Assembly (NCBI RefSeq): GCF_013385985.1
Contig: NZ_JACAOY010000004.1
Location: forward strand, 62,426 to 126,425
DNA from: Pseudomonas sp. B6002
GTDB taxonomy: Bacteria; Pseudomonadota; Gammaproteobacteria; Pseudomonadales; Pseudomonadaceae
Direction: 5' to 3'
Length of the DNA stretch: 64,000 nucleotides
The notes under the pieces were generated by a model. The model made no database searches. It was given only the letters and a program-made list of their open reading frames with translations, and was not told the origin of the DNA. Shown piece after piece: positions 39,910-51,381 of the stretch (its first letter is position 1; every line of letters begins with the position of its first letter). Made by a program: the position numbers and the translations under genes.

Positions 39910-39998
39910 TGTGGGAGCTGGCTTGCCTGCGATGGCGGTGTGTCTGTACCCAATGCGCTGCCTGATACACCGCTATCGCAGGCAAGCCAGCTCCCACA
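39910..39998. repeat. REP pair (REPIN) after glpM
   Basis: TGTGGGAGCTGGCTTGCCTGCGATGGCGGTGTG-type left arm and its inverted partner ending GCCAGCTCCCACA. It separates glpM from the converging six-gene operon. Confidence 0.85.
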
Positions 39999-40022
39999 TT
40001 CGGATCGGTGGCGGATAGAAAA

Positions 40023-41420
40023 TCAGCGGACGATCTTGTCGACCTGGATGCCCAGCTTCTTCAGGCGATACCAGAAGCTGCGCTCCGATATCCCGATCTT
40101 CGCCGCTGCCGCCGCCTGCACCCCATTGCTCTCTTGCAGGGCCGCCAGGATGTAAGCCTTTTCCACCTCGGCCAGCGCCGCGTCCAGGTCCTGGGGAATC
40201 CCCGGGCCGTCACTGAGGATCGTCGCCACCCCGCCTTCGCTCGGCTTGGAAGCGAACAGATAACCCGGCAAGTCGATGTCCTCGATCACCGGCGATGCCG
40301 CCACAATGGTCGCGCGTTCTACACAGTTCTGCAGCTCACGGATATTGCCCGGCCAGCTGTAGGCCGCCATCGCCTGCAACGCCTCGGCACTGAAGCCGGT
40401 GATACGCTTACCGGCCGTGGCGCTCAGGGTCTGGGCGAAGTGCCGGGCCAGGGGCGCGATGTCTTCCACGCGCTCGCGCAGGGCCGGCAGCGGGATCGGG
40501 AACACGTTGAGGCGGTAATACAGGTCTTCGCGAAATTCCTTATTGGCGACCGCGTCCAGCAGGTTCTTGTTGGTGGCAGCAATCACCCGCACATCGACCT
40601 TGCGTTCACGCGGGTCGCCCACCGGTTCGATCACCCGCTCTTGCAGCGCACGCAGGATCTTGGCCTGCAACGCCAGGGGCATGTCGCCCACCTCGTCGAG
40701 AAACAGCGTGCCCTTGTCAGCCTGCATGAAGCGCCCTACCCGGTCCGCCACGGCGCCGGTGAACGCGCCTTTGCGGTGGCCGAACATTTCGCTTTCCAGC
40801 AGGCCTTCCGGGATCGCGGCGCAGTTGACCGCCACAAAGGGTTTGTCGGCGCGGCTGCCGTGCTTGTGGATGGCACGGGCGACCATTTCCTTGCCGGTGC
40901 CGCTTTCGCCGGTCAGCAGGATAGTCGCGGTGCTGTCGCGTACCGAATCCACCGCCTGCAGCACTTTGCGAAACGCCGGGCTGTCGCCCACCAGACTGTC
41001 GAACTGGGCATGTTCATCCAACTCGGCGCGCAGGCGGGCGTTGTCGCGCATGATGTCGCGAAACTGCAGGGCCTTGGCCACGGTGATGTCCAGCTCATCG
41101 ATGTCGAACGGCTTGGCGATGTAGTCATACGCGCCGTTGCGCATCGATTGCACGGCGTTTTTCACCGTGCTGTAGGCGGTCATCACAATCACCGGCAAGT
41201 GCGGGTAGCGCACTTTGATCTCGGCCAGCAGCGCCGGCCCGTCCATGCCCGGCATGCGCCAGTCACTGATCACCAGGTCGATGTCTTCCTGTTCCAGCAC
41301 CTTGAGCGCATGCAGGCCGTTGCCTGCGGTGAACACCTGGATGCCGCTCTGGCTCAGGGCCGACGACAACAAGTCACACAGCTTGGGTTCGTCGTCGACC
41401 ACCAATACGTTATGCGTCAT
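40023..41420 (-). CDS. Sigma-54-dependent response regulator (NtrC family)
   Basis: A 465-residue activator: receiver with D9-D10 and phosphoacceptor D53 in VISDWRMPGMDG; AAA+ domain with GESGTGKE, an intact GAFTGA motif (RKGAFTGAVADRVG), GTLFLDEVG and FREDLYYRLNVFP; and a C-terminal Fis-type helix-turn-helix (AAAKIGISERSFWYRLKKLGI). The ATG at 41420 (MTHNVLVVDDEPK) overlaps the kinase gene by 11 bases. It is the last gene of an operon whose first gene (47291) has a sigma-54 promoter, so it probably activates its own operon through the palindrome at 47420-47448. Confidence 0.93.
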   Translation of the reverse strand: MTHNVLVVDDEPKLCDLLSSALSQSGIQVFTAGNGLHALKVLEQEDIDLVISDWRMPGMDGPALLAEIKVRYPHLPVIVMTAYSTVKNAVQSMRNGAYDYIAKPFDIDELDITVAKALQFRDIMRDNARLRAELDEHAQFDSLVGDSPAFRKVLQAVDSVRDSTATILLTGESGTGKEMVARAIHKHGSRADKPFVAVNCAAIPEGLLESEMFGHRKGAFTGAVADRVGRFMQADKGTLFLDEVGDMPLALQAKILRALQERVIEPVGDPRERKVDVRVIAATNKNLLDAVANKEFREDLYYRLNVFPIPLPALRERVEDIAPLARHFAQTLSATAGKRITGFSAEALQAMAAYSWPGNIRELQNCVERATIVAASPVIEDIDLPGYLFASKPSEGGVATILSDGPGIPQDLDAALAEVEKAYILAALQESNGVQAAAAAKIGISERSFWYRLKKLGIQVDKIVR

Positions 41421-43188
41421 GACCTTCCTCATCATCCCCGTCGTCTTCGCCGTTAGCCGGAATGTACAGGCTGAACGTGGCGCCGGCATCTTTCTCACTG
41501 GCACATTCGATGCTGCCGTCGTGACTTTCCATGATCGAATAGACTTTGGCCAGGCCCAGGCCAGTGCCCGAGGCCTTGGTGGTGACAAACGGTGTGAAGA
41601 TGCGCTCGATCATGTCCGCCGGGATACCTTGGCCGGTGTCGGCAATGCTGATGATCGTGTTGTCGTCCTCGCTGCGGATGCCCAGGGTCAGGCGACCGCC
41701 TTCAGGCATGGCGTCGATGGCATTGAGGATCAGGTTGAGGCAGGCCTGCTTGAGCTGCTTGGCGTCGGCGTAGATCGTCGCGCCGGGCGCCTGGTCATCG
41801 ATCTGTGCATCGATGTTATGGGTAGACAGCTCCGGGCCGCAGAAGCCGAGGATCTCTTCCACCACCGGGCGCGCCGCCTGCAGCGTGCGCAACGGTGGGT
41901 TGGGCTTGGCGAAATCGAGGAACTCGGTGATCAGGTCGTTGATGCGGCTGACTTCGCTGATCACGTATTCCAGATGGCGCTTGTCGGTTTCCGCCAGGTC
42001 GGCACGCCGGTGCAGCAGTTGCGTGGCGGTCTTGATGATGCCCAGCGGGTTGCGGATCTCATGGGCCAGGCCCATGGCGACCTCGCCCAAGGCGTGCAGG
42101 CGGTCACGTCGGCGCAGCTGGGCTTCCAGGTGATGCAACTCGCCCAGACGCTCGGTCATGTGATTGAACGTGCTGCTCAACTGCGCCAGCTCATCGCCGC
42201 CGCTCACCAGTACGCGGTGCTCATAGTTGCCCGAGATCACCGCATTCACGCCCTGGGACAAATCCCGCAAAGGCTTGGTCAGGCGCCGCGATACCAGCAC
42301 CCCCGCCGCCAGGGACAGCGCCGAGCTAAGCAGGAAGATCAATACGAACAAGTTGCTCTGGTTCACCAGCCCCACCAGGCTGGTATGGCGCAGCAAACCA
42401 CTGAAAATCACGCCTTGCAGTTCGCCGGTATCGTTGAAGATCGGCCAGTACAACCCACTGTACTTGCTGGTGAATTGCTCGCTGGGCTGCTTGGTGCTGC
42501 GCAACGCCGCTTCAACACCCTTGGGGATGCGCGAGGGGTGATCTTCGAAGCGCTGGGTTGAGAAAATCTCGGAAAACCCCGTGGGGTTGGCCAGGTAGAG
42601 ACGCAGGTCCAGGGAGTGCACATCGGCCACGCTGGTGAGGAAACTGCTGTCCAGGTAAGTGGCGACCAGCAGCAGGTAATCCTCTCCATCGCGATTGGTC
42701 TCGAAGGTCGAGACCACCAACCCCGTACTGACGCCGGCCACTTGCACCGTCTGCAACACCGCGTTGCTGGTCAGGTTAATCTGCTTGACGATGTCATCGG
42801 CGGCGGTGCTGAACACCACCTTATGGTCGCTGACGCGAATCAGCGCCACCACATCGATGTCCGTGGCATCGGCAATGTCGGCGGTGAGCCGATCATGCCG
42901 GGCAGCCTGTTTGGACGAGGGCGGGCTGGTGTAGCGCAGGAACAGCTTGGCCATGCGCGCGTTGTCATGAAGGATGTCGCCGATCTCGTCCTTGACGATC
43001 TTGGTCGACTCTTGCAGCCAGATCCGCACGTTGCTGTCGAAAATCTGCGACAACGTGGTAGCGGCCAGCTCGGCCGCGATCATGGTGGGAATAACGCTGA
43101 CCAGCCAGAACGCCAGCACCAGCTTGCGCTGGACGCTCCAGCGCGAGATGGCAAAGGGGCGAGCTTTCTGGCGGGTCTTGGTGATCAT
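41410..43188 (-). CDS. NtrB-type sensor histidine kinase with periplasmic domain and HAMP
   Basis: A 592-residue membrane kinase. A first membrane segment lies at about 18-40, then a roughly 250-residue periplasmic sensor (VVALIRVSDHKVVFSTAADD, ANPTGFSEIFSTQRF). A second membrane segment follows (NLFVLIFLLSSALSLAAGVL), then HAMP, a HisKA domain with GLAHEIRNPLG, and the ATPase domain (NLILNAIDAM, DTGQGI, GTGLGLAKV). The ligand is unknown. The C-terminus is acidic. Its ATG shares a base with the stop of the acyltransferase gene, and its end overlaps the regulator gene, so all are one transcript. Confidence 0.93.
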   Translation of the reverse strand: MITKTRQKARPFAISRWSVQRKLVLAFWLVSVIPTMIAAELAATTLSQIFDSNVRIWLQESTKIVKDEIGDILHDNARMAKLFLRYTSPPSSKQAARHDRLTADIADATDIDVVALIRVSDHKVVFSTAADDIVKQINLTSNAVLQTVQVAGVSTGLVVSTFETNRDGEDYLLLVATYLDSSFLTSVADVHSLDLRLYLANPTGFSEIFSTQRFEDHPSRIPKGVEAALRSTKQPSEQFTSKYSGLYWPIFNDTGELQGVIFSGLLRHTSLVGLVNQSNLFVLIFLLSSALSLAAGVLVSRRLTKPLRDLSQGVNAVISGNYEHRVLVSGGDELAQLSSTFNHMTERLGELHHLEAQLRRRDRLHALGEVAMGLAHEIRNPLGIIKTATQLLHRRADLAETDKRHLEYVISEVSRINDLITEFLDFAKPNPPLRTLQAARPVVEEILGFCGPELSTHNIDAQIDDQAPGATIYADAKQLKQACLNLILNAIDAMPEGGRLTLGIRSEDDNTIISIADTGQGIPADMIERIFTPFVTTKASGTGLGLAKVYSIMESHDGSIECASEKDAGATFSLYIPANGEDDGDDEEGHDA

Positions 43189-44312
43189 CAGGTTTCGCTT
43201 ATCGCAGCAGCCATGGCAGGGTCGGAACGATCCGGTCGGAAAAACATTTTCACTACTTTGAGCAGCCCATTGACCAACCGATTGCGGTGGCGGAAGAACA
43301 TGCTGTTGCCCTGGAACTCGCACCCCAGGCGCAGCTTACTGGCATAGCCCGCCTGCCCGCACTCGTACAACGCGATATTGTTCTGGATACAGTAGTCGAC
43401 GTTGGTCAGCCAGCTGCGGAAGTACAGGTTGTACTCACGGGTGAACTCCACGTCGTGCCCGAAGAACTTGTCGATCAAACGGTGCTCATCCACCAGCACC
43501 AGGTTGAACGCCACCAGGCTGTCATCCACCCAGTAAAGTACACAGACCGCGCGCTCATCAAGGCGTTCGAGCACGCCGGTGAAGTAGCCGGCGGGCAAGC
43601 GTTCGAACTGCAAATCGGAGCGCGTCAGGGTGGCTTCGTAGAGGCGCATGATCTCGGGCAACACGTCGTCGATGTTACGCCGCCATTCCACACGCGGGCC
43701 CGGCGCACGCAGCTTGCGGCGCAGGTCCTTGCGGGTGGATTTGCCCAGCGACCCCAGGTAGGCGTCCACCGACCCGTAGGGCAGAGGCAACAGCCCGGTG
43801 GGCAGGCTCGGCATGCTTTGAAAGCCTGCGGCGCGGCAGCTGTCTGCCCAGTCCGGGTCTTTGGTCGGTGCATCCTTGACCGCCACCAGGCCGATGCCGA
43901 ACTCGTCGGCATCCTGGCGCGCAGCCTGCAGCAAATGCTTAAGCAGCAATGGGCGGCGTTCGCTCGGGACATGGCTGGCCACCCCCGCGTCGCAACGCTC
44001 GGCCACCGGCGAACCGATGGCGTACAAACCCAACTGCAAAACACCCGGCCACAGTCGCTCCAGGCGCTCGGTCAAGCGCTTGCCGGCACCCGACACCGTG
44101 GTGTCGAGTCGATAATGAGTGATGAAGGCGGCGGCGACAGCCACCAGCACTCCATCGTCGTAAACAGCCAGGTAACGCCACTGAAAATCATCGATCGCGG
44201 CGTTTTCCACGGCCACGTAATAGTCCCAGTCCTCCAGGGCACCGGGAAAACAGTCATTCCAGGCACTGCGCTGGATAGCCCGGATGGTCGGGAAGGCTTG
44301 GGCGGTAATCAC
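43188..44312 (-). CDS. GNAT/FemAB-like (BioF2-type) acyltransferase
   Basis: A 374-residue protein I assign to the GNAT/BioF2-like fold by its second half: LGKSTRKDLRRKLR, YEATLTRSDLQFERLP, VAFNLVLVDEHRLIDKFFGHD, and the C-terminal CGQAGYASKLRLGCEFQ. Enzymes of this type move acyl or aminoacyl groups onto amines of small molecules or envelope polymers. The substrate is not known. It ends with a basic, partly hydrophobic stretch that could touch the membrane. It is the fourth gene of the sigma-54 operon and follows the hydrolase by 15 bases. Confidence 0.75.
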   Translation of the reverse strand: MITAQAFPTIRAIQRSAWNDCFPGALEDWDYYVAVENAAIDDFQWRYLAVYDDGVLVAVAAAFITHYRLDTTVSGAGKRLTERLERLWPGVLQLGLYAIGSPVAERCDAGVASHVPSERRPLLLKHLLQAARQDADEFGIGLVAVKDAPTKDPDWADSCRAAGFQSMPSLPTGLLPLPYGSVDAYLGSLGKSTRKDLRRKLRAPGPRVEWRRNIDDVLPEIMRLYEATLTRSDLQFERLPAGYFTGVLERLDERAVCVLYWVDDSLVAFNLVLVDEHRLIDKFFGHDVEFTREYNLYFRSWLTNVDYCIQNNIALYECGQAGYASKLRLGCEFQGNSMFFRHRNRLVNGLLKVVKMFFRPDRSDPAMAAAISET

Positions 44313-44327
44313 GTCTGTTCCTTAGGC

Positions 44328-45194
44328 TTACGCCCGCTGTCGATAATCTTCGGGCGCCTCGATGGCATGGGTGTGCTGCTCGACGAACTCGGCACTCAAC
44401 TCGATCACACGGCGGTATTGCAGGTCGACGGTGATCATGTGGTAGCAGTTGTCCAGCAGGATCTTGGTCACGGGGCCGCCGAGGTGGCGTTCCACGTAAT
44501 CGGCGTTCCAGCGGCTGGTGATGTCATCTTCGATGGAGTGCAACACCAGGGCCGGTACCTTGACCTCGGGCATGCGCTTCTTGACCACGGCGTTCATCCG
44601 GTGCAACTCGCGCACCGTGATGCCTTCCATGGTCAACAAGCCCGCCTCGCTGCTGTGCCCTTCCTTCATCTGTCGTTCGACGATCGCCCGCAGGCGCTCG
44701 TTCTTGATGCCATACGGCGGCTTCTCTTCGAAGCGGCAGATGTGCACGCCGAACGGGATCTTCATCAGCAATGGCGTCAGGAACGCCAGCTTGTGAATGC
44801 TCCAGCCGTCGTACTTCAAGGTGGTGGAATACATCAGCAACCCGGCAACCTGCCCGGGGTGCTCGGCGGCCACATACATCGACATCACCGCACCCATGGA
44901 CAAGCCACCGACGAACACCTGCTCGTGGCGCTGCTTGACCTGTGCGAAGGTCTTGCGCACACCTTCGTACCAGTCCAGCCAGCCGGTGGCCTGCAGGTCG
45001 CTGTTGCCCCCGCAATGCCCGGCCAGCGTCGGCACGTACACCGTGCAATTACCCGCCTTGGCCAGGCCCTTGGCGACCTGGCGCAATTCCGTCGGGGTGC
45101 CGGTCAGGCCGTGGATCAACAGGATCCCGACCGGACCTTCACCGAGAACGAAGCCGGCATCACCTTCACCGAGGTCGATCTCGAGGCTGTTCAC
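44328..45194 (-). CDS. Alpha/beta hydrolase (carboxylesterase/monoacylglycerol-lipase-like)
   Basis: A 288-residue serine hydrolase with the oxyanion motif ILLIHGLTGTP, the nucleophile elbow GGLSMG, a catalytic Asp in LHSIEDDI, and a catalytic His in DNCYHMITVD. It resembles Est30-type carboxylesterases and S33 peptidase-like enzymes. The start is GTG, overlapping the aminotransferase stop by four bases (GTGA). Within the operon it may cleave an ester or amide intermediate, or release the product. Confidence 0.88.
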   Translation of the reverse strand: MNSLEIDLGEGDAGFVLGEGPVGILLIHGLTGTPTELRQVAKGLAKAGNCTVYVPTLAGHCGGNSDLQATGWLDWYEGVRKTFAQVKQRHEQVFVGGLSMGAVMSMYVAAEHPGQVAGLLMYSTTLKYDGWSIHKLAFLTPLLMKIPFGVHICRFEEKPPYGIKNERLRAIVERQMKEGHSSEAGLLTMEGITVRELHRMNAVVKKRMPEVKVPALVLHSIEDDITSRWNADYVERHLGGPVTKILLDNCYHMITVDLQYRRVIELSAEFVEQHTHAIEAPEDYRQRA

Positions 45195-46585
45195 CGTTTG
45201 GTTGCCCGTACCAGCAGTTGCTCCAGGAGTTTCAGGCCCAGGTCGATTTCCGGGTAGCTGATTTCCAGGGACGGTGCCAGGGTGATCACGTTTTTGTAGT
45301 AACCGCCGACGTCGAGGATCAGGCCGAGTTTCTGGCCATCAACCACCATGTCGCCCTTCATGCCTTCTTCGACCATGTAGTCCAGGGTCGCCTTGTCTGG
45401 CGTGAAGCCGTCGGGGCCGCAGATTTCGCAGCGCAGGGCCAGGCCCAGGCCGTCGACGTCGCCGATGATCGGGAAACGTTTCTGCAGGTCTTGCAGGCCT
45501 TCCAGGAAGTATTTGCCCTTGGCCATGACCATCGCGCCGTAGTCGACTTCGTTGGTCATCTTGAACATTTCCAGGCCTACCGCCGTCCCCAGTGGGTTGG
45601 AGGCGAAGGTGGAGTGGGTGGAACCTGGCGGGAAGATCTTCGGGTTGATCAGCTCTTCACGGGCCCAGATACCGCCCAGTGGGTTCAGGCCGTTGGTCAG
45701 TGCTTTACCGAAGACGATCACGTCCGGTTGTACGTCGAAGTGTTCGATCGACCACAGTTTGCCGGTACGGTAGAAGCCCATCTGGATTTCGTCGGACACC
45801 ATCAGGATGCCGTGCTGATCCAGCACTTGCTTGAGTTCGCGGTAAAAGTTCATCGGCGGGATCACGTAGCCGCCGGTGCCCTGGATCGGCTCGACGTAGA
45901 ACGCTGCGTATTCGCTGGAACCGACTTTCGGGTCCCACACACCGTTGTATTCCGTCTCGAACAGACGGGCGAATTGCTGCACGCAGTGGCTGCCGTACTC
46001 TTCCTTGGTCATGCCTTTAGGGCCGCGGAAGTGGTACGGGAACGGGATGAACTGCGCACGCTCGCCGAAGTGGCCGTAGCGACGACGGTAGCGGTAGCTG
46101 GAGGTGATCGACGACGCGCCGAGGGTACGGCCGTGGTAGCCGCCTTCGAAGGCGAACATCAGGCTCTTGCCGTTGGTGGCGTTACGCACGACCTTCAGGG
46201 AGTCTTCGATGGACTGCGAACCGCCGACGTTGAAGTGCACGCGACCGTCGAGGCCGAACTTCTTCTTGGCGTCGACTGCGATCATTTCCGACAGCTCGAT
46301 CTTGCCTTTGTGCAGGTACTGGCTGGCGATTTGCGGCAGGGTGTCGATCTGCTGTTTCAGCGCGTTGTTCAGGCGTGGGTTGGCGTAGCCGAAGTTAACG
46401 GCCGAGTACCACATTTGCAGATCGAGGTACGCCTGGTCTTCGGTGTCCCACACGTAGGAGCCTTCGCAACGGCTGAAAATACGCGGTGGCTCGATATAGT
46501 GAACGGTGTCGCCGTACGAGCAATATTTAGCTTCTTTATCCAGAAGAATCTGGTCTTCGGCGGTAGCGATACGGATATCAGACAT
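45191..46585 (-). CDS. Class III (PLP-dependent) aminotransferase
   Basis: A 464-residue fold-type I aminotransferase. EGGYHGRTLGASSIT, the cofactor aspartate context MVSDEIQMGF (in the place of the usual DEVQTGF), and the PLP lysine in VFGKALTNGLNPLGG are visible. It resembles the omega-amino acid and ornithine aminotransferase group, but the exact substrate cannot be read from the sequence. The ATG at 46585 overlaps the phosphatase gene by eight bases. Its pairing with a HAD phosphatase suggests that a phosphorylated amino compound is handled. Confidence 0.9.
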   Translation of the reverse strand: MSDIRIATAEDQILLDKEAKYCSYGDTVHYIEPPRIFSRCEGSYVWDTEDQAYLDLQMWYSAVNFGYANPRLNNALKQQIDTLPQIASQYLHKGKIELSEMIAVDAKKKFGLDGRVHFNVGGSQSIEDSLKVVRNATNGKSLMFAFEGGYHGRTLGASSITSSYRYRRRYGHFGERAQFIPFPYHFRGPKGMTKEEYGSHCVQQFARLFETEYNGVWDPKVGSSEYAAFYVEPIQGTGGYVIPPMNFYRELKQVLDQHGILMVSDEIQMGFYRTGKLWSIEHFDVQPDVIVFGKALTNGLNPLGGIWAREELINPKIFPPGSTHSTFASNPLGTAVGLEMFKMTNEVDYGAMVMAKGKYFLEGLQDLQKRFPIIGDVDGLGLALRCEICGPDGFTPDKATLDYMVEEGMKGDMVVDGQKLGLILDVGGYYKNVITLAPSLEISYPEIDLGLKLLEQLLVRATKR

Positions 46586-47291
46586 GGTGGAAGAGTTCCT
46601 GATTTTCAACAGAGAGGTCAGTAGCAGTGAAGGTGGTGGCGTTGGCGGCGATGCCCAGAGGCAACTTGGCCAGCAGCGCGGGCACTTCGGCAAAGGTGTC
46701 GAAGCGCGCGTAAGGGATGTTGTGGGTCTCGCAGTAGTCAGCCAGGCTGCCTTTGGCGAAGACGAAATCGGCGGTGGAGGCCACGCACATGTCGGACTTG
46801 CCGTCGCCGATCACCAGCACGCGCTTGTTGCGCGGGGTGGATTTGCACTTGCAGTTGCCGGACGCGGCACGGCAGGCATCGCTGGAGTACGGGAAGTCGA
46901 TGCGCCAGCTGTTCTGGTCGACCTGACGCAAGCGATTGGCGAGGATCGGCAGCAAGGTCACGTAGTTGCGCGACAGGATGCGTGCGATGCCTTGTTCGAT
47001 GCCGTCGCTGACCACTTCGATGGTCGCGCCCAGGCCCATGACGTGGTCGACGAAGTCCGGGAAGTCCGGGTCGATCTCGACGCTGTCGAAGTACGCCAGC
47101 AGTTCGGCAGGTGTGGCCTTGATCAGCGCCAGTTGACGGCTCAGGCATTCGCGGGAACCGATATGCCCATCCAGCCATTCCTGTTCGATGGTTTCCCATT
47201 CGGGGCCGGCGAAGCGTTGGAGGACGTTGTCGATGACATCGGTGGGGGTAATGGTCCCGTCGAAGTCACACACGATATGCCAGTGGATCAT
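46578..47291 (-). CDS. HAD-IB phosphatase, MtnX/SerB-like
   Basis: A 237-residue HAD hydrolase. The nucleophile motif CDFDGTIT has D9 and D11, motif II is in VVSDGIE, motif III a following lysine/arginine, and motif IV VIGDGKSDMCVA. An unusual CKCKS with nearby Cys (SDACRAASGNCKCKS) sits in the cap or insert, as in MtnX-type phosphatases. It is the first gene of the operon; its ATG at 47291 has AAGGT nine bases upstream and a sigma-54 promoter 53 bases upstream. The substrate is unknown; a role in methionine salvage is unlikely because no other mtn gene is here. Confidence 0.88.
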   Translation of the reverse strand: MIHWHIVCDFDGTITPTDVIDNVLQRFAGPEWETIEQEWLDGHIGSRECLSRQLALIKATPAELLAYFDSVEIDPDFPDFVDHVMGLGATIEVVSDGIEQGIARILSRNYVTLLPILANRLRQVDQNSWRIDFPYSSDACRAASGNCKCKSTPRNKRVLVIGDGKSDMCVASTADFVFAKGSLADYCETHNIPYARFDTFAEVPALLAKLPLGIAANATTFTATDLSVENQELFHHV

Positions 47292-47343: not shown

Positions 47344-47359
47344 AGCAGGGAGCGTGCCA
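47344..47359 (-). promoter_or_regulatory. Sigma-54 promoter of the phosphatase-aminotransferase operon
   Basis: The minus strand reads TGGCAC-GCTCC-CTGCT, which matches TGGCAC-N5-TTGCW with one mismatch and has the invariant GG-N10-GC. The start site would be near 47333, about 40 bases before the phosphatase gene. Confidence 0.8.
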
Positions 47360-47419: not shown

Positions 47420-47448
47420 CAAGCTACAATTTTTGTAGCTTGCTACAA
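47420..47448. promoter_or_regulatory. Triple half-site palindrome, probable enhancer for the sigma-54 operon
   Basis: Three alternating half-sites GCTACAA (47423), TTGTAGC (47433) and GCTACAA (47442) are spaced by three and two bases. The first two form a perfect inverted repeat with 10-bp arms around TTT. The centre is about 100 bases upstream of the inferred sigma-54 start, the usual place for an NtrC-type activator. It also lies 74 bases before the divergent MipA-like gene, so it may control both. Confidence 0.65.
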
Positions 47449-47521
47449 ACAAGATGAGTGCTTGCGCCAGGGATGCCCTTCGCGCGTTCATGCGCACGTA
47501 ATCAATCAAGGAACCGTGACC

Positions 47522-48292
47522 ATGTTCAGGATCACATGTGCTGCATTCGCCGGTTTGCTTGGCTTGTGGGGCTTTTCAAACGCCGCCCAGGCTGAGGGCA
47601 TTACCGGTGAAGTGGGCGCAGGCGTCAGCTATCAGCCCCGCGAACCCACAGGCAGCCGCTATCAGATCACCCCTATTCCCTACTTCGATCTGGACTGGGG
47701 CAATGTCAGCCTCGGGACCGACGATGGCTTGACCTGGAGCGCCCTGAATACCAACGGGTTCAGCGCCGGGCCTTACGTCAATTACATTTCGGGCCGCACG
47801 GCCAACGGTGCGCTCGCCGGCCTGCGGGATGTCTCGAGCATGGCCGAGGTGGGCGGGTTCGTGCAGTACGCGCCGGCCGAGTTCTGGCGGGTCTACGCCC
47901 AGCTGGGCCGGGCCGTGGGCGGTGGCCACGACCAGGGCGGCGTGCTCGGCAAGGTTGGTGGCGAGCTGGGTTACCCGCTGGGCGGCGGGATCATTGGCAG
48001 CAGCGGCCTGATGGCGCATTTCGCCGACGACCGCCAGACCAACACGTTTTTCGGCGTGGATGACAACGAAGCCGCGGCCTCGGGCTTCAAGCCCTACAAC
48101 GCCAGCGGCGGCTTCCAGAACCTGACGTTTACCCAGAGCTTCGAGTTCCCCCTGGCGGCGAAGTGGTCGCTGCTGACCAGCGCCAGCTGGGTACACCTGG
48201 TGGGCTCGGCGGCAGACAGCAGCATCGTGCGCCAGACCGGCGAAGTGAATCAGGGCCAAGTGCAGACCGCCATCAGCTACAAATTCGACTGA
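47522..48292 (+). CDS. MipA/OmpV-family outer-membrane protein
   Basis: A 256-residue beta-barrel protein with a signal peptide (MFRITCAAFAGLLGLWGFSNAAQA) and the MipA/OmpV style: ITGEVGAGVSYQPREP, YFDLDWGNVSLGTDDGL, and a C-terminal ISYKFD ending typical of outer-membrane insertion. The family includes scaffolds for murein synthesis and porin-like proteins; the exact job is unknown. The ATG at 47522 follows AAGGAACCG. It is divergent from the sigma-54 operon and shares the palindromic control region. Confidence 0.85.
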   Translation: MFRITCAAFAGLLGLWGFSNAAQAEGITGEVGAGVSYQPREPTGSRYQITPIPYFDLDWGNVSLGTDDGLTWSALNTNGFSAGPYVNYISGRTANGALAGLRDVSSMAEVGGFVQYAPAEFWRVYAQLGRAVGGGHDQGGVLGKVGGELGYPLGGGIIGSSGLMAHFADDRQTNTFFGVDDNEAAASGFKPYNASGGFQNLTFTQSFEFPLAAKWSLLTSASWVHLVGSAADSSIVRQTGEVNQGQVQTAISYKFD

Positions 48293-48298
48293 TCCCCC

Positions 48299-48364
48299 TG
48301 TAGGAGCCGGCTTGCCGGCGATGAGGCCCTTAAAAACGCCATCGCCGGCAAGCCGGCTCCTACA
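48299..48364. repeat. REP pair (REPIN) between the MipA-like gene and the desaturase gene
   Basis: TGTAGGAGCCGGCTTGCCGGCGATG and its exact inverse bracket only about 16 bases; the arms pair over 20 bases or more. Confidence 0.9.
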
Positions 48365-48443
48365 GTTGGGTTTCGTGAGTGCCGACGAAGTTGGTCTAAG
48401 CCTTGCAGTAACGCCCTGGAATCCACTGTTCAGGACGTTCTTC

Positions 48444-49316
48444 ATGGCTCGCCCCGCTTACCGCCTGTTGCACCATTCGCTGTGGGACCTGGTCCCTATC
48501 GCCATGGGCCTGGCGCATTTCGCTTTTGTCATCTGGCTGGTTGCCGCGTTTCATAGCTTGAGCTGGTGGGCCTTGGTGCCCTTGGCGCTGGTATACGCGG
48601 TTAGCCTGTCGTGGAGCATCAACAGCATCTCCCACAACCAGATCCACAACGCCTACTTCACCCATCGCGCCATGAACCGTGCGTTCGACCTGCTGCTGTC
48701 CGTGACCATCGGGTTTTCCCAGACGCTCTACCGCGATATCCACAACCGCCACCACCGTGGCAACGCCGACCTGCCGGGCCCGGACGGGCAAACCATCGAC
48801 CCGCTGTCGATCTACCAACGCGGCAAAGACGGCCAGCCGGAAAACCCGTGGGCCTACACGTTCCTCAGTTTTTTCCGCGACGATCCCAAGCCGTTCTACG
48901 ACGAAATGAAGCGCAAGCGCCCGGCTGACGCTCGTTGGGTCAAGGTGGAGATCTGCGTGACGGTGGCGTTCTACATCGCCCTGGCGTTCTACAACTGGCA
49001 GGCGGTGCTGTGGCTATTGCCGTTCTGGTACCTGGGCCAATGCCTGTCATCGCTCAATGGCTACTACGAGCACTTCGGTGGCAACCCGGACCTGCCGATT
49101 GCCTGGGGCGTGAGTTCCTACAGCGTGTTGTACAACCTGATCTGGATGAATAACGGCTACCACGCCGAGCACCACTACCGGCCGAAGATGCACTGGACCA
49201 AGGTGAAGGCGTTTCATCGGGAGATTGCCGAGCAGCAGCGTGAGGCGGGGGTCAAGGCGCTTCCGGTGTCCCATGGCTTAGGCTTCCTGGTGGCACACCG
49301 CAAATCCCAGGGCTGA
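48444..49316 (+). CDS. Membrane fatty-acid desaturase/hydroxylase-family protein
   Basis: A 290-residue integral membrane protein with three histidine boxes (SHNQIHN, HNRHHRGN and HAEHHYR) that bind a di-iron centre, and four or more membrane segments. Such enzymes desaturate or hydroxylate acyl chains, terpenes or alkanes. The substrate is not evident. The ATG at 48444 (MARPAYRLLHHS) is chosen as the first start downstream of the REP pair. It is a single gene between two REP loci. Confidence 0.85.
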   Translation: MARPAYRLLHHSLWDLVPIAMGLAHFAFVIWLVAAFHSLSWWALVPLALVYAVSLSWSINSISHNQIHNAYFTHRAMNRAFDLLLSVTIGFSQTLYRDIHNRHHRGNADLPGPDGQTIDPLSIYQRGKDGQPENPWAYTFLSFFRDDPKPFYDEMKRKRPADARWVKVEICVTVAFYIALAFYNWQAVLWLLPFWYLGQCLSSLNGYYEHFGGNPDLPIAWGVSSYSVLYNLIWMNNGYHAEHHYRPKMHWTKVKAFHREIAEQQREAGVKALPVSHGLGFLVAHRKSQG

Positions 49317-49324
49317 CCCTAATT

Positions 49325-49430
49325 TGTAGGAGCCCGGCTTGCCGGCGATGGCGTCCTCAAGGGCCCCATCGCTGGCAAGCCAGCTCCTACAAGGGGTGGT
49401 CGTAGGTGCCGGCTTGCCGGCGATGAGGCC
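49325..49430. repeat. REP pair plus a solitary REP after the desaturase gene
   Basis: An inverted pair lies at 49325-49391. A third, single element (GTAGGTGCCGGCTTGCCGGCGATGAGG) lies at 49402-49430 in the same orientation as the left arm. Confidence 0.85.
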
Positions 49431-49455
49431 CGCACGGACGCCATAGCCAGGGATC

Positions 49456-49872
49456 TCAGTTCTCTTCGCCTTCAGCCAGCAAGGCAATCCCGCCGATAAT
49501 CACCGCAACCCCCACCCAGTGCAGCAGGCTGATGTGTTCCCCCAGCCCCAGCCACGACCCTAGCAGCACCACCACAAACACCAGCGAACTCAGCGGAAAC
49601 GCCAGGGACAGGCTGCTGCGCCGCAGGATCAGCATCCACACGAAGAAGGCGCCGATGTAACTGCCGATCGCCGCCAGGATTCCCGGGTTGCGCGCCACGT
49701 CAGCCAGCCACTGCCAGTTGAAATCCATCTGCCCCAGTTGGTCACCGGCCACCTTGGTAAACAGCTGCCCGGCGCTTTCAAAACCGATCAGCAACGCCCA
49801 CAGCACCACGGTACCCAGGCGCCCGTGCAGCCAGCCGCTGGGCCGCTCTGCCGCTACATTCTGCGAACTCAT
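49456..49872 (-). CDS. Half-size EamA/SMR-like membrane transporter subunit
   Basis: A 138-residue protein with four hydrophobic helices after a short basic N-terminus (WALLIGFESAGQLFTKVAGDQ, then FVVVLLGSWLGLGE). It resembles a single EamA repeat, as in ArnE/ArnF or SMR exporters, which work as pairs. Its start overlaps the stop of the next gene upstream by four bases. Together with that gene it probably makes a heterodimeric transporter. Confidence 0.78.
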   Translation of the reverse strand: MSSQNVAAERPSGWLHGRLGTVVLWALLIGFESAGQLFTKVAGDQLGQMDFNWQWLADVARNPGILAAIGSYIGAFFVWMLILRRSSLSLAFPLSSLVFVVVLLGSWLGLGEHISLLHWVGVAVIIGGIALLAEGEEN

Positions 49873-50249
49873 GCCTGACTCCCCGCAATGGCCACCAACA
49901 TCACACCAAAAGTAATCACCAGCGTGCCCAGCCAGCGACGCCGGCTGACGGTTTCCTTGAGCACCAGCTTGCCCGCCAGCACCACACCGCAGTAGGCCAG
50001 CGCTGCCGCCGGGAACAACAGGCTCAACGGCGCGCGCGACAAGGCTTCAAGCCACACGAAAAACTCGATGGCATAGGCGCCGATCCCGGCCCACAGCAAC
50101 GGCGCATTGAACACTTGGCCCCAGAACGCATTCAGGCGAAAACCGCCTTCCAGTTCCGGCAGGCGGTCCAGGCCGATCTTGAAACACAGCTGGCCGATCA
50201 CATCGAGCACGATGGAAAACGCCACCAGCATGACTACGAGCAAGGTCAC
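49869..50249 (-). CDS. Half-size EamA/SMR-like membrane transporter subunit (partner)
   Basis: A 126-residue protein with four hydrophobic helices (MLVAFSIVLDVIGQLCFKIG, and AYAIEFFVWLEALSRAPLSL), the same fold as the neighbouring subunit. Both keep the Q-L-F/C-K pattern in the first helix. It overlaps the UPF0489 gene and the second transporter gene by four bases each, so the three genes form one operon. Confidence 0.78.
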   Translation of the reverse strand: MTLLVVMLVAFSIVLDVIGQLCFKIGLDRLPELEGGFRLNAFWGQVFNAPLLWAGIGAYAIEFFVWLEALSRAPLSLLFPAAALAYCGVVLAGKLVLKETVSRRRWLGTLVITFGVMLVAIAGSQA

Positions 50250-51166
50250 GGGAACAACTCCTCAAACAGGTCAATCAGGGCTTCATTGGTCGCGGCATTG
50301 CGCTGAATATCCTCCGGGCTCCAGCGCTCGGGCGGCGGCTGGTCGGACTTGGCTTCCCAGCGCTTGAACGCGTTGCTGAACGCCGGCGTGGCGAACTCGC
50401 CGCACACGTCGATGCCGATGATGCGCTTGCGCGCCGCCAAGGCCCGCAGGGCCTCCAGCAAATGGGTCAGGCGCATGCCGCCCTGGTCCCAGTTGGTGGC
50501 GGCGTCTTCGCTGGCCAGCACGTCTTTGTCGATGGTGATCCAGATCGCTTCGGTGGGCAGGCTGCTGATCATCTGCTCCAGAAACGCGGTCCAATCCAAC
50601 TCGGCCAGGTTGCGCCAGTGCAGGTGGTTTTCCTGCTGTTGATGGCCGGCGCCATCGCCTACCCGGCCCCAGACTTTCGACGGCGGATGCTGCCACGGAA
50701 ACAGCTGCAACTGCCCGCGCTTGAGCGCGCCGAGGTTGCCGCCACGCAGTTGCGGGTTATGCAGGTCGTCGCTGCAGGGGCCGAGGGTGACGATGCGTTT
50801 GACGGCCGGCATTTTCAACGCACGGTTGACCCAGGAACCACAGTGGCGCTTGGGCGCAAAGCGCACCCAGTCAGGGTGGTTGTCGAAATGGATCAGGCTG
50901 ATGGGTTCCTTGAGGTCTGCCAGGAACGCCGGCGTGAGGTGGTGGTAATCGCCGGAGCCGACAAACAGGATTTCCGGGCGTGCATCCACCGGCCGTGGCC
51001 GTTTGGCCAGGCGCTCGGCGAAGGACTTCCAGGTTTTTTCGGTGGACCACAGGCGCAGTTTCGGGCCCAGGTCCAGCAAGTCGAGGCGCGTGGCCTGGCC
51101 GCTGGCCAAACGCCGGGCAATCGGTGCCTGGCCGGTAAGGCTGTGGTCGAGGTCAAGAATATTCAA
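50246..51166 (-). CDS. UPF0489/arginase-fold protein
   Basis: A 306-residue protein with ureohydrolase-like metal motifs: HFDNHPDWV in the middle and TIDKDVLASEDA later, plus GDYHHLTPAFL and IGIDVCGEFA. These fit the arginase/agmatinase-like UPF0489 family, whose substrate is not known to me. The probable start is TTG at 51166 (giving NILDLDHSLTGQ) with a G-rich site upstream; no ATG fits, and further upstream the frame enters a REP pair. It leads an operon with two half-size transporters, which hints that its substrate or product is moved across the membrane. Confidence 0.75.
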   Translation of the reverse strand: MNILDLDHSLTGQAPIARRLASGQATRLDLLDLGPKLRLWSTEKTWKSFAERLAKRPRPVDARPEILFVGSGDYHHLTPAFLADLKEPISLIHFDNHPDWVRFAPKRHCGSWVNRALKMPAVKRIVTLGPCSDDLHNPQLRGGNLGALKRGQLQLFPWQHPPSKVWGRVGDGAGHQQQENHLHWRNLAELDWTAFLEQMISSLPTEAIWITIDKDVLASEDAATNWDQGGMRLTHLLEALRALAARKRIIGIDVCGEFATPAFSNAFKRWEAKSDQPPPERWSPEDIQRNAATNEALIDLFEELFP

Positions 51167-51273: not shown

Positions 51274-51362
51274 TGTAGGAGCCGGCTTGCCGGCGATGGC
51301 GGTGGGTCTGTGCCAAATGAGCCGACTGATACACCGCTATCGCAGGCAAGCCAGCTCCCACA
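51274..51362. repeat. REP pair (REPIN) between the UPF0489 and frnE-like genes
   Basis: The left arm is of the GCCGGCTTGCCGGCGATGG class and the right arm ends CGCAGGCAAGCCAGCTCCCACA, so the two halves are from different REP variants. Confidence 0.85.
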
Positions 51363-51381
51363 TTTTGAACAGTGACCGGCC

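Follow-up and report, generated by a model that had tools for sequence, protein, structure and literature searches.

An unnamed gene cluster of Pseudomonas and other soil and plant bacteria as a candidate pathway for an amine-bearing envelope lipid

INTRODUCTION

The described systems closest to the gene cluster reported here include MprF and other aminoacyl-phosphatidylglycerol synthases, the ArnE/ArnF flippase of the Arn pathway, the DevBCA-TolC exporter, and the two-component systems AtoSC and ZraSR. The cluster is built around a six-gene operon at positions 40023 to 47291 of the window, by which we mean the whole 64,000-nucleotide stretch that was analyzed, taken from the 6.68-Mb genome of Pseudomonas sp. 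B6002 (RefSeq assembly GCF_013385985.1, contig NZ_JACAOY010000004.1, positions 62,426 to 126,425 of the forward strand). Unlike MprF and its relatives, the cluster encodes a transferase without a membrane domain, along with a separate core (a HAD phosphatase, a pyridoxal phosphate [PLP] enzyme, and a hydrolase), a pair of EamA proteins, and an arginase-fold partner. ArnE and ArnF are, as in the cluster, two small paralogous EamA proteins encoded together, but the EamA proteins of the cluster score at most 55% of the ArnE and ArnF cut-offs, and the annotated plasmid copies do not lie in arn operons. DevBCA exports heterocyst glycolipids, and DevA- and/or DevC-like genes are neighbors of the cluster in four lineages (Xanthomonas L017, Nevskia L088, Agrobacterium L109, and another Pseudomonadales family, L118), although none was seen among the Pfam matches of the window genes scanned. 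Finally, AtoSC and ZraSR share their domain layout, a palindromic upstream site, and a σ54 promoter with the sensor and regulator of the window, yet this pair falls below the equivalog cut-offs and has one exact target site in the genome.

Our results reveal that the six genes are about half of a larger unnamed cluster common to many soil and plant bacteria. Its architecture and regulation are well supported, whereas we infer every chemical step. We regard the cluster as kin to cationic or aminoacyl envelope-lipid systems. Its parts have known folds, and their combination, including an altered PLP active site, matches no named pathway that we found; within the portion of the literature available under open licenses, no description of the gene set or name for it turned up. 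This agrees with an original prediction, made from the sequence alone, whose author did not recognize the set as a named pathway.

RESULTS AND DISCUSSION

Gene content of the cluster

The operon and its upstream sites comprise the following features:

46578 to 47291, minus strand: core gene 1, MtnX-like HAD-IB phosphatase (PF12710; above the TIGR01489 subfamily cut-off)
45191 to 46585, minus strand: core gene 2, class III PLP enzyme of a distinct Arg-less subfamily (PF00202, Aminotran_3)
44328 to 45194, minus strand: core gene 3, monoacylglycerol-lipase/Est30-like alpha/beta hydrolase (PF12146, Hydrolase_4)
43188 to 44312, minus strand: FemABX-like tandem-GNAT transferase (PF13480, Acetyltransf_6, and PF04339, FemAB_like, both above cut-off)
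41410 to 43188, minus strand: membrane sensor histidine kinase (HAMP PF00672, HisKA PF00512, HATPase_c PF02518)
40023 to 41420, minus strand: σ54-dependent NtrC-type response regulator (PF00072, Response_reg; PF00158, Sigma54_activat; PF02954, HTH_8)
47344 to 47359, minus strand: σ54 promoter of the operon, TGGCACGCTCCCTGCT, 52 bases from the HAD start codon
47423 to 47447, no strand assigned: probable activator site, with the palindrome GCTACA-N5-TGTAGC at 47423 to 47439 and a third half-site, 80 bases upstream of the promoter (start to start)

A check of the open reading frames (ORFs) in the window confirmed the six genes, their coordinates, and their overlaps as first described: 8 bases between the HAD and PLP enzyme genes, 4 between the PLP enzyme and hydrolase genes, 1 between the GNAT and kinase genes, and 11 between the kinase and regulator genes, with a gap of 15 bases from hydrolase to GNAT. 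The starts of the PLP enzyme, kinase, and regulator are internal to longer mechanical ORFs. As a gene set, these six held up; as a complete one, they did not, given that five further genes on the other side of the promoter also belong:

47522 to 48292, plus strand: MipA/OmpV-family outer-membrane protein (PF06629), divergent from the operon
48444 to 49316, plus strand: fatty-acid desaturase (PF00487), start inferred
49456 to 49872, minus strand: EamA half-transporter 1, ArnE/F-like (Pfam EamA score of 27.7, cut-off of 28.2)
49869 to 50249, minus strand: EamA half-transporter 2, ArnE/F-like (Pfam EamA score of 24.1, cut-off of 28.2)
50246 to 51166, minus strand: arginase-fold (ureohydrolase) protein, with a TTG start inferred at 51166

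Linkage among these genes recurs across Pseudomonas. Searching genome contigs for the PLP enzyme, we took the best 80 loci of a longer list, which lean to Pseudomonas, and the counts given here refer to the 58 of 67 Pseudomonas loci that exceed 19 kb, each read with flanks of 10 kb, so that genes lying farther away are missed. HAD and hydrolase genes were found in all 58 loci, kinase and regulator genes in 57 each, the EamA pair in 48, the GNAT gene in 44, the arginase-fold gene in 37, and the desaturase gene in 11, while the MipA gene is divergent from the HAD gene in 57. Because the HAD, hydrolase, kinase, and regulator genes join the PLP enzyme in 57 of the 58 loci, with the promoter and palindrome conserved just upstream, the linkage is more than chance. 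Co-occurrence across Pseudomonas, which had been suggested as a check, was seen for the six genes, with the GNAT gene as the most variable of them, and the enzymes were linked across loci rather than mostly scattered.

The accessory genes are also ordered in their presence. An arginase-fold gene occurred only together with GNAT and EamA genes (37 of 37 loci), and a desaturase gene only together with GNAT, EamA, and arginase-fold genes (11 of 11). Among 299 Pseudomonas genomes, the PLP enzyme was found in 83, the GNAT in 68, and the arginase-fold protein in 54 (thresholds of 1e-150, 1e-100, and 1e-50, respectively), and presence was nested in that order with one exception. The exception, genome G375, which has the GNAT and arginase-fold genes and no PLP enzyme, reflects an assembly gap, with the hydrolase and HAD genes at two contig ends. 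Furthermore, a second type of GNAT was found in 12 of the 299 genomes. All 12 carry the core and have an arginase-fold gene beside the second GNAT, none has the first arginase type, and 10 have a DegT aminotransferase gene within the stretch read; the search for the second arginase type covered 16 genomes. Such replacement of both partners in trans argues for one pathway more strongly than adjacency does. We also considered whether genomes that appear to lack the GNAT hide a paralog, which was true of 2 of 16, the other 14 giving no match at an E value of 1e-10. By comparison across genomes, the FemX-like and arginase-fold genes behave as a coupled pair, dependent on the core. A third type of GNAT (142 to 184 bits) was noted in eight genomes (G153, G190, G205, G216, G225, G284, G310, and G150).

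Outside Pseudomonas, we compared 32 loci, namely 28 that carry the PLP enzyme and reach at least 12 kb plus four added by hand (L016 to L019); the gene table available for the plasmid collection has gaps. The GNAT gene was present in 23 of these loci, and the arginase-fold gene in those 23 and also in L129, whose contig breaks off within the cluster. DegT aminotransferase genes were found in 12 of the 32. On two Agrobacterium plasmids (L109 and L110), the cluster is a seven-gene block of HAD, PLP enzyme, arginase-family, EamA, hydrolase, GNAT, and EamA genes, set in an island that also carries an ABC exporter, MacAB, an RND pump, and additional response regulators. A fatty-acid desaturase and a cyclopropane synthase are added on two Rhizobium plasmids and a third Agrobacterium plasmid, and the Xanthomonas locus adds a ketoacyl synthase (KAS), an acyl carrier protein (ACP), and a DegT aminotransferase. 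More generally, the cyclopropane synthase was seen in rhizobia and Nevskia, and the KAS and ACP in Xanthomonas, Oleiagrimonas, and others. Phylum-wide, the PLP enzyme was found in 24 of 398 genomes and 12 of 212 genera. In a tree of the PLP enzyme (41 of 42 entries, as L016 gave no row), Bartonella falls inside a gammaproteobacterial group, a position that suggests horizontal transfer of the Bartonella copy. In Bartonella L091 and L096 to L098, including B. choladocola, this gammaproteobacterial-type copy is accompanied by DegT.

Regulation

The regulator of the window has the features of the NtrC type. It combines receiver, σ54-activator, and Fis domains, and its target operon has a -24/-12 promoter and, upstream of it, a palindrome to which the regulator is predicted to bind. 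The N-terminal sensor part of the kinase matched no Pfam family at cut-off. Identity with AtoSC or ZraSR, and with it a role in acetoacetate catabolism, was rejected, since all four scores are below cut-off (AtoC, 485.9 versus 714; AtoS, 226 versus 646; ZraR, 402.5 versus 760; ZraS, 192.9 versus 479).

We counted the regulatory sites in 101 loci, 71 with the regulator and 30 without, leaving out duplicate or short loci (L001, L002, L101 to L104, L111, and L112). Using patterns derived from the same loci in which they were counted, we found that the σ54 promoter differs from the consensus of these loci by at most one mismatch in 69 of the 71 regulator loci and that the palindrome is present, at the same tolerance, in 66. 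Both together were found in 65 of 71 loci with the regulator and in 4 of 30 without it, and at least two of these four (L035 and L043) are Pseudomonas contigs too short to reach the regulator. In a control with one mononucleotide shuffle per region, the promoter appeared in 4 of 101 loci and the palindrome in none. The distance from promoter to palindrome (n = 69) was 79 to 82 bases in 46 loci, 69 to 70 in 19, and 91 to 92 in 2; an activator that has to stay on one face of the DNA would be expected to give such steps of roughly one helical turn. By comparison across loci, then, the genes form one system, and the sensor/σ54 pair is tied to the operon by the promoter and palindrome, which bears out the view of the operon as a single unit with a dedicated sensor and σ54 activator.

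In the 6.68-Mb genome, the palindrome occurs exactly once, with two further copies at one mismatch. These numbers do not support a large regulon; as a control, the pattern read backwards gave 60 matches per strand. The single genomic copy and the conserved sites point to a dedicated pair, probably a single-target switch of the operon. Regulation differs among lineages, with an OmpR-type pair taking the place of the σ54 pair in rhizobial copies and the σ54 pair being carried by the Aureimonas locus. On the MipA side of the palindrome, at about 47442 to 47466, a second block (GCAAGCACTNATNTTNTTTGTAG, in the direction of the operon) is nearly invariant in 18 aligned Pseudomonas loci; no σ54-type motif was recognized in this block of the alignment.

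Core and accessory enzymes

Among the NCBIfam matches listed, none of the six operon proteins reaches an equivalog cut-off. The HAD protein scores 83.3 bits against TIGR01489 (cut-off of 81.55) and keeps the motifs DFDGT, SDG, GxCKC, and GDGxSD in 24 of 24 aligned rows. Identity with MtnX of methionine salvage was rejected, as both equivalog cut-offs were missed (111 versus 292 and 93.8 versus 303.2 bits).

The PLP enzyme is 72 to 76% identical to its Xanthomonas and rhizobial copies. With class III transaminases and amino-acid racemases such as 7vno and 9wqz it shares the family, at 201 to 221 bits, and the Asp, Lys, and phosphate-binding Thr that serve PLP, which are kept in all 112 PLP-enzyme rows (108 distinct sequences). 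It differs from them at two positions, and no equivalog cut-off was reached among the matches listed. Specifically, the Arg of the IR motif (IR.xPP), which is Arg in 7vno, 9wqz, and 9wrf, is Thr in 112 of 112 rows, and the Glu of QGEGG (7vno and 2eo5) is Thr in all of them (QGTGG in 110, QATGG in 2). In class III enzymes the Arg binds the substrate carboxylate. The word transaminase in the original prediction is therefore not secure.

The hydrolase gave a profile match to monoacylglycerol lipase (E value of 3.4e-45), and its nucleophile is Ser in 23 of 27 rows and Cys in four rhizobial rows. These Cys-for-Ser hydrolases (GICVGG or GICIGG) are those of L018, L019, L094, and L100, whose clusters have a desaturase in four of four cases and a cyclopropane synthase in three of four.

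The GNAT protein had been called a FemAB/BioF2-type acyltransferase. This assignment calls for revision, in that the best fold matches of its AlphaFold2 model (pLDDT of 89.1) are FemA, FemX, and Sba18/Sbb17, all of them aminoacyl-tRNA dependent. It has the tandem GNAT fold of the FemX type and a FemAB_like domain, as expected of FemABX transferases. The lowest root mean square deviations in the list, 3.0 to 3.2 over 272 to 274 residues, belong to Sba18/Sbb17. Sequence identity to FemA/FemX and Sba18/Sbb17 is 9 to 19%, with moderate Foldseek TM-scores of 0.56 to 0.61 by query length. The protein matched no NCBIfam family at an E value of 0.001, and no search aimed at OlsA/OlsB of ornithine lipids was made. 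The arginase-fold protein has the ureohydrolase fold and keeps the ligands of the binuclear metal site (GDxHH, DxHxD, and DxD).

The two EamA proteins are 37% identical to each other. Against the ArnE and ArnF equivalogs, EamA1 scores 36.4 versus cut-offs of 92 and 99; the best NCBIfam match of EamA2 is ArnF (54.5 versus 99), the other giving 37.4 versus 92. The desaturase of the window is 48 to 54% identical to the desaturase found inside the rhizobial operons L018 and L019.

Proposed pathway and alternatives

We propose that the cluster is a regulated, modular system for making, decorating, and exporting an amine-bearing envelope lipid, to which we assign a probability of roughly 45%. In this scheme, the HAD phosphatase, the PLP enzyme, and the lipase-like hydrolase would produce an acylated amine or amino-alcohol, and lineage-specific accessories (desaturase, cyclopropane synthase, or KAS and ACP) would provide or modify its acyl chains. 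The FemX-like enzyme may then, as an optional step in the cytoplasm, add an amino acid donated by aminoacyl-tRNA, and the arginase-fold enzyme could trim the added group, also in the cytoplasm, conversion of arginine to ornithine being the simplest version. The ArnE/F-like EamA pair would then flip the product, and its transport to the outer membrane would fall to MipA or a DevABC/TolC-type exporter. Our reading of the product as an envelope lipid draws on the lipid context, that is, the desaturase, cyclopropane synthase, KAS and ACP, lipase-like hydrolase, and ArnE/F-like pair. A small-molecule or envelope-modifying route had been suggested for the operon at the outset, and an envelope-type pathway is supported, with the chemistry remaining conditional. 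Somewhat doubtful is the more specific claim of an undescribed class of envelope lipid, in which the Arg-less PLP enzyme and MtnX-like phosphatase would form a lipid amine, the soluble FemX-type enzyme would charge it from tRNA, the arginase-fold enzyme, with its unusual pocket motif, would trim the added group, and the ArnE/F-like pair would flip the product outward, the whole being a modular counterpart of MprF that has spread through alpha- and gammaproteobacteria, partly on plasmids, and is switched on by lineage-specific two-component systems.

Several observations weigh against the envelope-lipid proposal, beginning with the chemistry. Given the lost Arg, the amine-forming step of the PLP enzyme may not be a transamination. 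CoA-using tandem GNATs and N-myristoyltransferases score only 4 to 5 Z units below the best matches of the GNAT model, and a shared fold alone does not show tRNA dependence. In arginases, a Glu three residues after the Asp of DV/DI near the C terminus binds the guanidinium. Guanidine hydrolysis by the arginase-fold protein is uncertain because, in 24 of 24 rows, a Gly aligns with the Glu that agmatinase and formimidoylglutamase have after DVV/EIV. An acidic residue lies one position later (Glu in 17 rows, Asp in 7), and the alignments disagree, placing the Gly opposite the Glu of formimidoylglutamase 3m1r and the later acidic residue opposite the Glu of agmatinase 4dz4; 4rhm, which is named an arginase, also has Gly at the guanidinium-Glu position. 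As for export, MipA and the DevABC-like and efflux neighbors are linked by position only, the DevA- and DevC-like neighbors are below the DevA and DevC cut-offs, with DevA models scoring little above LolD, and the EamA proteins could export a soluble molecule.

Other points of this kind concern gene content and control. In the 58 Pseudomonas loci, the GNAT gene stands without a nearby arginase-fold gene in 7 (3 with EamA, 4 with GNAT alone), EamA is the only one of the three in 8, and GNAT, EamA, and arginase-fold genes are all missing in 6; outside Pseudomonas, 8 of 32 loci have neither a GNAT nor an arginase-fold gene. Kinship and sampling inflate the Fisher P values, and the argument thus rests on the pattern. 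Seven of the genomes with the third GNAT type carry it as an additional GNAT, and the eighth, G150, gave no PLP enzyme at the threshold used and a weaker GNAT match of 142 bits. The PLP gene of G283 is read as two overlapping pieces and may be broken or misassembled, and P. libanensis has two loci in one genome, the fuller L040 and the truncated L033, which has HAD, PLP enzyme, and hydrolase genes without MipA or regulator. The Aureimonas locus L016 has no close PLP enzyme, only a class III neighbor at 23% identity. Two of the 69 promoter spacings (111 and 136 bases) lie outside the three clusters. Lastly, on a Bosea plasmid (L020, 7822 to 11101), MipA adjoins a relative of the σ54 pair, and the enzymes are missing. 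This plasmid is one case of an arrangement that had been put forward as evidence against the operon, namely the pair conserved with a different set of genes, and it suggests that MipA may be an older target of the regulator.

Alternatively, the product could be a soluble, exported small molecule such as a signal, a siderophore-like compound, or an antibiotic, with the FemX-like enzyme coupling an amine to an amino acid in the manner of streptothricin-type pathways and the EamA pair exporting the result. EamA proteins often export small molecules. The Sba18/Sbb17 folds that match the GNAT at the lowest deviation are peptide synthases in complex with streptothrisamine, and the distribution of the cluster is patchy and partly plasmid-borne. 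Nevertheless, the acyl-lipid partners recur (desaturase, cyclopropane synthase, KAS and ACP), an outer-membrane MipA accompanies nearly every Pseudomonas locus, and DevA/DevC-like genes occur in four lineages, and we consider a soluble product unlikely.

Amine modification of lipid A or another surface glycan against cationic peptides, in the manner of Arn or EptA and with the FemX-like and arginase-fold enzymes as options, is quite improbable. It would account for the ArnE/F-like pair and for the two types of two-component system beside the cluster. In addition, a phosphoethanolamine-lipid A transferase and a diacylglycerol kinase lie near one Agrobacterium copy, MacAB and RND pumps lie near two others, and DegT genes occur in 12 of the 32 non-Pseudomonas loci. 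Yet the annotated plasmid loci, in a gene table that is incomplete, show no lipid A or undecaprenyl-phosphate sugar transferase except EptA in one, and to our knowledge neither a lipase-like hydrolase nor KAS and ACP are used in the known Arn or Ept routes.

Slightly more improbable again is degradation or salvage, in which the phosphatase, a PLP lyase, the hydrolase, and an arginase-fold amidohydrolase would degrade an amine or phospholipid that is imported or comes from a host and is sensed by the kinase. By family, three of the enzymes are hydrolases, the lost carboxylate Arg would fit a PLP lyase, and the kinase and regulator score best, below cut-off, against the catabolic AtoSC. By contrast, the FemABX-type transferase, desaturase, and KAS and ACP are anabolic by family, and no uptake system shared by the annotated plasmid loci was noticed, although there was no systematic test. 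Anti-phage defense was rejected, as PADLOC matched none of the five enzymes tested and neither the kinase nor the desaturase, and for the regulator gave three RtcR-type AAA models and one weak model.

If the envelope-lipid proposal is correct, an unrecognized surface-lipid pathway is common to many bacteria associated with plants and soil, among them rhizobia and some Bartonella, and is also present on Agrobacterium plasmids. More speculatively, such a lipid could set tolerance to peptides from hosts or competitors. The single regulatory site and compact operon make the cluster directly testable.

Other observations

Repetitive extragenic palindromic (REP)-like inverted repeats of the GTAGGAGCCGGCTTGCCGGCGAT type lie in four intergenic gaps of the cluster, at about 39910 to 40010, 48300 to 48365, 49326 to 49450, and 51280 to 51370, the second of these being the gap between the MipA and desaturase genes.

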